This document shows, in pieces, positions 35,653-52,575 of a DNA stretch of 64,000 bases. Source of the stretch: Clostridiaceae bacterium. Lineage in GTDB: Bacteria; Bacillota; Clostridia; Tissierellales; Sporanaerobacteraceae. The stretch spans positions 1 through 64,000 of the forward strand of contig JAHXQP010000005.1 of assembly GCA_019391515.1 (NCBI GenBank). The letters are read 5' to 3'. How positions within the stretch are numbered: position 1 is the first letter of the stretch; each line of letters starts with the position of its first letter. The position numbers and the translations under genes are program-made. Below the pieces are notes generated by a model, which saw only the letters and a list, made by a program, of their open reading frames with translations, was not told the DNA's origin and searched no databases.

Positions 35653-35707
35653 TTATATTACATTTAAAAGAATTGACTTACAAAGCCAAGGAATATAAAA
35701 TTATAAA

Positions 35708-35795
35708 TACAAAGATAAAAACACGGCCTGGTTGGTAGTCCAGGCGTAGCATATCGCTATCAGTAACCTGCCTCCTTGGTTGTCCATTCTTTGTT
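35708..35795 (+). ncRNA. Probable yjdF riboswitch
   Basis: A structured-looking leader before the yjdF-family gene: GCCTGG (35726-35731) can pair with CCAGGC, then AGCATATCGCT forms a small hairpin, followed by TAACCTGCCTCC and GGTTGTCC. yjdF genes in Firmicutes are commonly preceded by the yjdF-motif RNA, which binds azaaromatic compounds and activates translation. Assigned from position and partial structure; the ribosome site AAGGAGG lies downstream at 35808-35814. Confidence 0.7.
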
Positions 35796-35820
35796 TATAT
35801 TATTTTAAGGAGGAATTAAT

Positions 35821-50104: not shown

Positions 50105-50146
50105 TTGCCCAGCTATAAGGTCAATATAAACCTTATAACTGGGCAA
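50105..50146. terminator. Bidirectional terminator
   Basis: TTGCCCAGCTATAAGGT and ACCTTATAACTGGGCAA, one G-U, ends in T-rich (plus) or A-rich sequence. Shared by the acetyltransferase and prxU, which converge here. Confidence 0.8.
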
Positions 50147-50155
50147 ATTATTTTA

Positions 50156-50764
50156 TTAATCGTCTACTTGATCTACACTCCATTCTTTCCATACCTTACC
50201 TACTAATTCAGGGCCTGGTTTTAATGTTTTCTTACCTGGTTTCCAACCTGCAGGTGTAACTTGAGCACCTTTTGTCTCTCTTACTAATTGAAAAGCTTTA
50301 ATTTGTCTTATTGTTTCATTTATATTTCTTCCTACTGGAGGAGTAAGAACTTCAAATCCTTGAACTATTCCATCTGGATCGATTATAAATCTACCTCTTG
50401 TTTCTACTCCACTATCTTCATCATAGATTCCATATTTTCTGCCTACTGATCCATCTTGGTCAGAACCCATTAGGAACGGAATATCTCTATCTATCATTTT
50501 AGATAATTCATGTTCGTTCCACATTTTGTGAACAAATGGACTGTCGACACTAATGGATATAACTTCAACCCCTAATTTTTGTAATTCTTCATATTTGTCA
50601 GCAACTGCTGAAATTTCAGTAGCTCAGACAAAAGTGAAGTCCCCTGGATAGAAACATAATAGTACCCATTTTCCCTTAAATTCTGAAAGGCTTAAATTAA
50701 CAAACTCACCTTTGTGAAAAGCTGGTATAGTAAAATCTGGTGCTGGCTTTCCAACTTTAATCAT
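50156..50764 (-). CDS. prxU: Selenocysteine-containing peroxiredoxin PrxU
   Basis: 203 codons including an in-frame TGA at 50624-50626 (codon 47). It falls exactly at the peroxidatic cysteine: FYPGDFTFV-U-ATEIS, where AhpC-type proteins read FTFVCPTE. Sequence on both sides is uninterrupted and typical: KVGKPAPDFTIPAF, VISISVDSPFVHKMWNEHE, GSVGRKYGIYDED, RGRFIIDPDGIVQG. ATG 50764 has AAAGGAGGAA upstream. The C-terminal QVTPAGWKPG has Thr where 2-Cys enzymes have the resolving Cys. Reduces peroxides. An in-frame extension from 50872 is possible. Confidence 0.92.
50594..50632 (-). promoter_or_regulatory. Candidate bacterial SECIS hairpin around the UGA
   Basis: On the minus strand TTTGTC pairs with GACAAA, enclosing the UGA, and inside it GCTACTG pairs with CAGTTGC (one U-U mismatch) around a 9-nt loop AAATTTCAG. 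A stem immediately after the UGA with a small loop is the expected layout of a bacterial selenocysteine insertion element. Confidence 0.7.
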
Positions 50765-50872
50765 ACTTAATTCCTCCTTTTGAGTGGTTTTATTTTCTTC
50801 TGGTTTGCTTTCTTCTACTTTATCTTTTTTAATTTCTGGTCTTTGGCAGCCTGCATTAAATTTTTCTGGCAT
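50765..50872 (-). other. Alternative N-terminal extension or leader of prxU
   Basis: ATG 50872 with AGGAGG reads in frame into prxU and adds 36 residues (MPEKFNAGCQRPEIKKD then a Glu/Lys-rich stretch). Both this ATG and 50764 have good ribosome sites. The same peptide start is repeated at 52228-52302, where it stops on its own. Confidence 0.55.
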
Positions 50873-51026
50873 AAAAAAACCTCCTATTCCCATATAGATA
50901 AAATCTATAGTGCTTAGAAACCTTATAAAAAGGGCCTATAAGACTTTTACCCTTTAGTAAATATTATTAATCATAATTATTGAAACTTTCTTCATGTTAT
51001 AATAGTTGTAAATACTGTACATCTTA
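50822..51026 (-). repeat. 205-bp promoter duplication, prxU copy, with PerR-box-like site
   Basis: Matches 52252-52456 without indel (offset 1430). Contains the extension start, its ribosome site, a conserved leader and, at 50997-51011, TTACAACTATTATAA (minus strand), close to the PerR consensus TTATAATNATTATAA (two mismatches). Confidence 0.8.
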
Positions 51027-51050
51027 ATTTTTATCATTTTGCCCAAGAAT

Positions 51051-52227: not shown

Positions 52228-52302
52228 TTATAATGTTGATGATTTTGCAAAATCTTTTTTAATTTCTGGTCTTTGACATCCTGCTTTAAATTTTTCTGGC
52301 AT
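52228..52302 (-). CDS. 24-residue peptide in the splB leader
   Basis: ATG 52302 with AGGAGG encodes MPEKFKAGCQRPEIKKDFAK plus four residues. It is the duplicated start of the prxU extension, cut off at the end of the 205-bp repeat. Translation is likely given the site; a function is not evident. Confidence 0.5.
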   Translation of the reverse strand: MPEKFKAGCQRPEIKKDFAKSSTL

Positions 52303-52456
52303 AAAAAAACCTCCTATCCTCATATAGATAAAATCTATATGATTTAGAAATCTTATAAGAACTACCTATAATTTTTTCACCCTTTAATAAATATTATTGA
52401 TCATAATTATTAAAACTTTCTTCATGTTATAATAATTGTAAATACTGTACATCTTA
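52252..52456 (-). repeat. 205-bp promoter duplication, splB copy, with PerR-box-like site
   Basis: Second copy of 50822-51026. At 52427-52441 the minus strand reads TTACAATTATTATAA, one mismatch from the PerR consensus. It should drive splB. The rest of the gap to 52575 shows only the AT-rich upstream region of the response regulator. Confidence 0.8.
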
Positions 52457-52575
52457 TTTATAGTTAACACCAATGAGAAATGAAATATCTAAATAGGGGA
52501 TTTAAGTTGATAATGTTTAGCATTAAAATAAAACTATATTAGTTTATATAAAAAATGTAAAAAGAAGGTGGTATC

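Follow-up and report, generated by a model that had tools for sequence, protein, structure and literature searches.

In classical Prx1 enzymes, the oxidised active site forms a disulfide with the C-terminal Cys of the partner subunit. The closest described relative of the gene studied here is PrxU, the selenocysteine (Sec) peroxiredoxin of Peptoclostridium (= Eubacterium) acidaminophilum. We take the PrxU family of the literature to be a 203-aa, U47 protein that begins at the inner of the two starts described below, and native P. acidaminophilum PrxU to be a protein of ~22 kDa and 203 residues, which would directly support the short form. A second point of comparison is genes with nested in-frame starts, of which IF2 is one. 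According to excerpts of two papers, such starts give N-terminal proteoforms in bacterial and archaeal genes (PMC11005335) and Cas11b inside a Cascade gene (PMC11899642). A literature search at the level of titles and abstract openings found no nested-start peroxiredoxin or selenoprotein.

We analysed a 64,000-nt stretch of DNA (the window) from a Clostridiaceae bacterium. Its reverse strand carries a gene whose product shares the fold and the active-site frame PxxxTxx(C/U) with AhpC and other typical 2-Cys peroxiredoxins (Prx1 type), but differs from them in having Sec for Cys, Thr for the C-terminal resolving Cys, and a TIGR03137 score below the cut-off. It is closer to P. acidaminophilum PrxU (NZ_CP007453.1, WP_084481301.1). 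The earlier note had called for this comparison, which gave 71.5% identity over residues 1-200 and the same Sec site. The P. acidaminophilum protein also has a 37-residue tail with GCARP, and its gene the same kind of inner Shine-Dalgarno (SD) sequence; it differs from the window gene in lying on an 809-kb plasmid record (locus L092) and at 5 of the first 12 tail residues. Like the nested-start genes, prxU has one frame and two ribosome sites, with two nested proteins predicted from sequence.

Identification of prxU in the window

Positions 50764-50156 (reverse strand) encode one 202-aa AhpC-type protein when TGA is read as a residue. The frame contains a single TGA, codon 47, and it occupies the peroxidatic position (FTFV-U-ATE). 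The earlier note had proposed that two reverse-strand frames are one gene with TGA codon 47 at the peroxidatic site; the frame and the family comparison agree, and the position of the codon, 50624-50626, was confirmed in the sequence. This codon is predicted to specify Sec47 of a short form and Sec83 of a long form. The gene need not, as that note suggested, be hidden and called a pseudogene: translation with table 11 does split the frame into two ORFs (upstream piece, 50624-50893), but the NCBIfam model NF040737 covers PrxU, and RefSeq gives the P. acidaminophilum orthologue as one CDS. The gene limits proposed in that note, 50156-50764, are those of the short form, PrxU-S (202 aa, inner textbook start, Sec47); however, the same frame has a second predicted start 36 codons further upstream (50872), preceded by a separate ribosome site, and the added segment contains a conserved Cys motif. 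The candidate long form, PrxU-L, spans 50156-50872 (reverse strand; 238 aa, Sec83, 36-aa N-terminal Cys tail), as the open frame and the family-model match indicate.

The short form contains the Pfam domains AhpC-TSA, Redoxin and 1-cysPrx_C. It scored 386.2 bits against NF040737 (peroxi_PrxU, equivalog; cut-off 270) and 197.9 bits against the AhpC equivalog TIGR03137, under its cut-off of 272. The genomic match to NF040737 extended over 50171-50854 (398.8 bits; model positions 2-232 of 233). In the tree, 133 PrxU rows formed one clade apart from AhpC (SH-aLRT 100, quick search), with the window gene beside L012. The enzyme body had a pN/pS of 0.14 (224 overlapping pairs of equal tail length). 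The AlphaFold2 model had a mean pLDDT of 87.4 and a Prx1/AhpC fold, and the top Foldseek matches were PrxA, AhpC and Prx2 (E 1.9e-23 to 5zte). Judged by frame, family model and tree, the window gene is prxU, a PrxU-family selenoprotein gene and a new member of a known family. A stem-loop resembling an intrinsic terminator lies 3′ of it (50105-50146, reverse strand), and prxU is apparently transcribed alone.

The genome (2.84 Mb, 99.5% complete) was searched for the Sec machinery, on which the earlier note had made its reading depend. selA, selB, selD and tRNA-Sec are all present: selD, selA and selB adjoin one another on contig C29, and the tRNA-Sec gene (anticodon TCA) lies 3 kb beyond this cluster. 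The assignment to the PrxU-type Sec peroxiredoxins of amino-acid-fermenting clostridia is borne out by the PrxU score, and the same genome has homologues of grdA (with TGA) and grdB. Among near relatives, selA was found in all 24 genomes with a PrxU match and in 56 of 60 overall. The selD gene (G000:C29:55072-55995) has one in-frame TGA, and selenophosphate synthase is probably a selenoprotein itself. In another peroxiredoxin gene (G000:C2:184405-184794; L180 1264-1929, minus strand), the peroxidatic codon is likewise an in-frame TGA (HPGDFTPV-U-TTEF); from this motif we take it to be of the Prx6 type and the second Sec peroxiredoxin of the genome.

Conservation of the TGA codon and the SECIS hairpin

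TGA was found at the aligned site in 75 of the best 80 related loci of the genome collection. The other five comprised four Cys-type AhpC genes and one locus cut off before the active site. Because the same-site TGA recurs in these 75 loci, the TGA in the window is not a sequencing slip. Among 398 genomes from the phylum of the window, 49 scored above the PrxU cut-off, and every match contained one TGA or more; in the 48 over-cut-off loci compared (all but G286), the TGA fell exactly at the active site without exception. The cut-off was also exceeded in 23 of 60 near relatives, where the site is TGA in 22 and Cys in the remaining one (L153). P. acidaminophilum prxU has TGA at the same site.

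For the family statistics, 12 of 154 loci were dropped before counting on account of identical proteins or frames of <150 residues; the short frames were L015 and L144 (further stop), L173 (cut by the contig end), and L151, L152 and L172 (misanchored by the script). Three more were dropped as unmatched by the active-site pattern: L083 and L087, truncated where their contigs stop, and L044, with FYT for FYP. Counts of Sec loci refer to n = 132. L153 (genome G412) is the sole member of the PrxU clade in the tree with Cys for Sec; it is tailless, has no C-terminal Cys, and its genome retains selA. In L015 (Anaerosalibacter massiliensis ND1) and L144 (same genus), a TAA follows soon after the Sec codon of prxU, which points in these close relatives to either a disrupted gene or an assembly error.

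A SECIS hairpin with the core UCAGC-AGUU-GCUGA lies at 50598-50611 (reverse strand), its loop beginning after 17 nt from the UGA. The geometry used in the folding test is one we take to be of the bacterial type. Folded alone, the window's 50 nt did no better than shuffles (z -0.35), and the p value against its own synonymous shuffles was 0.15. Across the family, the fold was stronger than the mean of the locus's own synonymous shuffles in 131/132 loci (mean -7.1 vs -2.4 kcal/mol) and individually at p ≤ 0.05 in 59/132; these statistics are across related sequences and are not independent trials. The loop was AGUU in 92 loci and GGUC in 27. Three stem pairs were paired in 123, 108 and 107 of 132 loci, compared with 88, 74 and 52 after partner shuffling (reached in 0/2000 shuffles). 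The sixth pair occurs as U-A, G-C, A-U and C-G across the family, and is mismatched in the window. Compensatory changes have preserved the hairpin across the family; it is the family, not the window sequence alone, that shows this.

An N-terminal Cys tail

The prxU frame is open upstream to the ATG at 50872, which is preceded by AGGAGG, and the extension adds MPEKFNAGCQRPEIKKDKVEESKPEENKTTQKEELS. This tail (50765-50872, reverse strand) has Cys9 (codon 50848-50846) in GCQRP, followed by a variable hydrophilic linker. An in-frame upstream Cys is kept in 101 of the 132 Sec loci under a loose rule that is blind to ribosome sites (in-frame Cys 24-42 codons upstream, no intervening stop; L064 and L155 are doubtful members). 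Around the Cys in these 101 loci, G precedes it in 87, R or K stands at +2 in 87, and P at +3 in 97. C9 and P12 were at least 90% conserved among 95 aligned tailed proteins; L051 and L130, whose tails have odd lengths, were omitted from alignments A1 and A2, which covered 95 and 94, respectively, of the 97 loci with tails. Tail length varied from 34 to 53 codons, mostly 35-38, always in frame. pN/pS was 0.28 in the first 16 tail codons and 0.85 in the linker (224 overlapping pairs of equal tail length). The head of the tail is under coding constraint and very likely translated as protein.

The tail state changed at least nine times on the tree. No motif of the G-C-x-R/K-P type was present in any frame of the 31 tailless loci within the upstream 400 nt, or less at contig ends (<200 nt in L057, L081 and L170). 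A separate upstream peptide as the source of the tail was rejected on this absence from the upstream sequence covered. NF040737 includes the tail, residue 1 of the short form corresponding to model position 35. In the C. sticklandii genome paper, the Sec of the listed peroxiredoxin is residue 84 of 240, a position consistent with the long form (PMC3091704). The open-licence literature, which lacks the original PrxU papers, yielded no text on a PrxU tail.

Two predicted in-frame starts with ribosome sites

The outer SD of the window gene, AGGAGG, lies at 50880-50885 (reverse strand; -10.9 kcal/mol). The inner SD, AAAGGAGG, lies within the tail codons at 50773-50780 (reverse strand; -11.6 kcal/mol), and in the family it is kept beyond synonymous shuffles. 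Energies were calculated against the usual anti-SD sequence.

Median SD energy in the 97 tailed loci was -11.5 kcal/mol for the outer site, a figure that is circular because an outer SD of ≤ -5 kcal/mol was itself the criterion for the set, and -11.3 kcal/mol for the inner site. With the outer-SD rule lifted, the nearest start had an SD of ≤ -5 kcal/mol in 88 of the 100 loci with a start codon among the 101 Cys-tail loci. ATG, GTG or TTG was present within four codons of the inner site in 97/97 tailed loci, and an inner start codon with an SD of ≤ -5 kcal/mol in 96/97. Among the tailless loci, 30/31 had a start with such an SD within four codons of the inner site (median -11.5 kcal/mol).

In the synonymous-shuffle test, amino acids were fixed and codons redrawn from each gene's own usage. 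With the inner start defined as the best start codon within four codons, the inner SD averaged -10.5 kcal/mol, compared with -5.0 kcal/mol expected; it was better than expectation in 96/97 loci and individually at p ≤ 0.05 in 35/97. In 78/97 loci a start codon lay exactly at aligned residue 1, with an SD of ≤ -5 kcal/mol in 78/78, and this aligned-start test, which involves no choice of site, gave -10.6 vs -4.9 kcal/mol (better in 77/78). The ratio of GAG to GAA was 110:45 at the inner SD site and 440:974 in the prxU body. The excess persisted when one representative was retained per cluster at 85%, 75% or 68% identity (48/48, 19/19 and 7/7, respectively). A second in-frame start with an SD of ≤ -8 kcal/mol, 20-60 codons into the gene, occurred in 73/83 prxU genes vs 5/209 other ORFs of the same loci; the latter were collected automatically, and some of them may not be real genes. 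For a nested pair of starts, the inner site stands out against synonymous shuffles, and the outer by its SD energy alone. These findings indicate that the inner ribosome site is kept in the family by selection beyond that on the amino acids.

Neighbourhood of prxU

Pfam scans of 18 prxU neighbours in 13 of 15 relative loci, and of the window's two neighbours, revealed no shared redox partner; the sole shared neighbour was spore photoproduct lyase, which accompanies prxU in both the window and L012 (genus Anaerosalibacter). A 208-nt stretch upstream of the window's spore photoproduct lyase gene (52252-52459) is 89% identical to 50822-51029, which covers the prxU leader and the first tail codons. 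Translated, the copy gives a shortened tail of 24 aa that ends at a stop of its own, and it may supply splB with a promoter like that of prxU. BLAST gave one leader match each in 7/10 relative loci and none in 3/10. A PerR-type operator upstream of prxU is not claimed, the best 15-mer having beaten resampled sequence at p ≤ 0.05 in only 17/129 loci scanned with the usual PerR consensus. Elsewhere in the window, an azaaromatic (yjdF) riboswitch was found at 35705-35803 (forward strand, 94 bits).

Resolving Cys and proposed mechanism

At the position that we take to be that of the C-terminal resolving Cys in AhpC, Cys was absent in 126 and present in 6 of the 132 Sec loci. The window protein has Thr at this site (VTPAGW). 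Because the usual resolving Cys is gone, the tail Cys is proposed as the resolving residue of PrxU-L; we put this forward tentatively, as a hypothesis only. A strict swap between tail Cys and C-terminal Cys was not supported, given ~30 loci with neither and 5 with both: 30/31 tailless Sec loci lack the two residues (among these, L057 is truncated where its contig stops), and 5 of the 6 loci that retain the C-terminal Cys have the tail. Since the C-terminal Cys is missing from these 30 tailless loci too, a PrxU can evidently exist without the tail Cys. Cys37, ten residues before Sec, may matter too, because it is found in 129/132 Sec loci and in 0/6 AhpC-type outgroup rows. The ~30 Sec peroxiredoxins without tail or C-terminal Cys (L034, L039, L128, L164 and the UPTE-type tailless loci) form a natural 1-Sec set, and L164 has no other Cys at all. 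In the AlphaFold2 model, confidence in the tail was low to medium (block means of 68 and 53 for window residues 1-20; linker <50), and two orthologues differed as to which tail residues form a bridge.

In the mechanism proposed here, SelB would insert Sec at the UGA, helped by the hairpin just downstream. Ribosomes would start at two sites of one frame, at 50872 to give PrxU-L with its tethered tail Cys, and at 50764 to give PrxU-S with no tail. Both forms would reduce peroxide through Sec, peroxide oxidising Sec47. In PrxU-L, the tail Cys might then close an Se-S bond with the oxidised Sec, to be reopened by thioredoxin; PrxU-S would work as a 1-Sec enzyme, using external thiols or the nearly universal Cys37. 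The 30 loci with neither Cys (the tail region being cut off in one) would likewise encode 1-Sec enzymes. A further-reaching model, which we regard as rather doubtful, makes PrxU a two-isoform selenoenzyme in which tailed Sec/Cys forms and untailed 1-Sec forms would be mixed in one assembly; the tail Cys would resolve from an N-terminal place unused by classical Prx1-type enzymes, and the start-site ratio would set the internal resolution of Sec.

Discussion

It is likely, from the sequence comparisons, that both starts of prxU are used, so that one frame yields PrxU-L (238 aa) with PrxU-S (202 aa) nested inside it. The masses computed for the short and long forms are 22.7 and 26.9 kDa in the window and 22.4 and 26.6 kDa in P. 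acidaminophilum, a difference of about 4.2 kDa. A gene broken by a nonsense mutation would also appear as two ORFs under the standard code, but the same TGA in 75/80 and 48/48 loci, the covariation of the SECIS hairpin, the Sec machinery and the body pN/pS of 0.14 leave that reading next to no probability, and the family TGA, the SECIS hairpin and the coding constraint rule it out. It is unlikely that only the outer start is real, with the 238-aa protein as the sole product and the inner SD a relic or a pause site. The NCBI model and the RefSeq P. acidaminophilum CDS do use the long form, and the C. sticklandii paper places Sec at 84 of 240 (PMC3091704). However, an inner start codon is present in all 97 tailed loci and an SD in 96, kept against synonymous drift in divergent representatives, and 30/31 tailless relatives start with an SD at the same place. 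Use of the inner start alone, the upstream frame being untranslated, is more improbable still. It would agree with the literature form, taken here as 203 aa and U47, and with an inner SD as strong as that of the tailless genes (medians -11.3 vs -11.5 kcal/mol), but not with the tail-head pN/pS of 0.28, the Cys and Pro at least 90% conserved in aligned tails, the strong outer SD, or tail lengths that vary yet stay in frame.

The function of the tail is a separate matter from the use of both starts. Two forms may be made with the tail serving as a binding or sorting element (for a partner, a metal or a stability signal) and not as a resolving arm, a reading to which we give appreciable weight, though short of an even chance. 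What the tail conserves is a short motif, carried by a linker that varies, and loci with neither tail nor C-terminal Cys exist; yet the 18 neighbours in 13 relative loci suggested no partner, and redox chemistry would be a fitting role for a Cys that ranks among the best-conserved residues of the tail in a Sec peroxidase. The explanation as a whole, in which prxU has two starts and yields Sec peroxidases, with resolution by the tail Cys proposed, is in our judgement probable. We have not seen a family organisation with two starts and a Cys tail in place and the C-terminal resolving Cys missing described previously, as far as our searches went.

PrxU is the reference bacterial selenoperoxiredoxin. 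Databases use its long form, and the literature presumably the short one. Probably both starts are genuine and have been maintained by selection in several phyla, as judged from the record titles. In that event, recombinant studies confined to the short form would have covered half of the system, and the tail Cys would be a natural candidate for the resolving cysteine that PrxU lacks. PrxU would then stand as a conserved example of one selenoprotein gene giving two nested isoforms.
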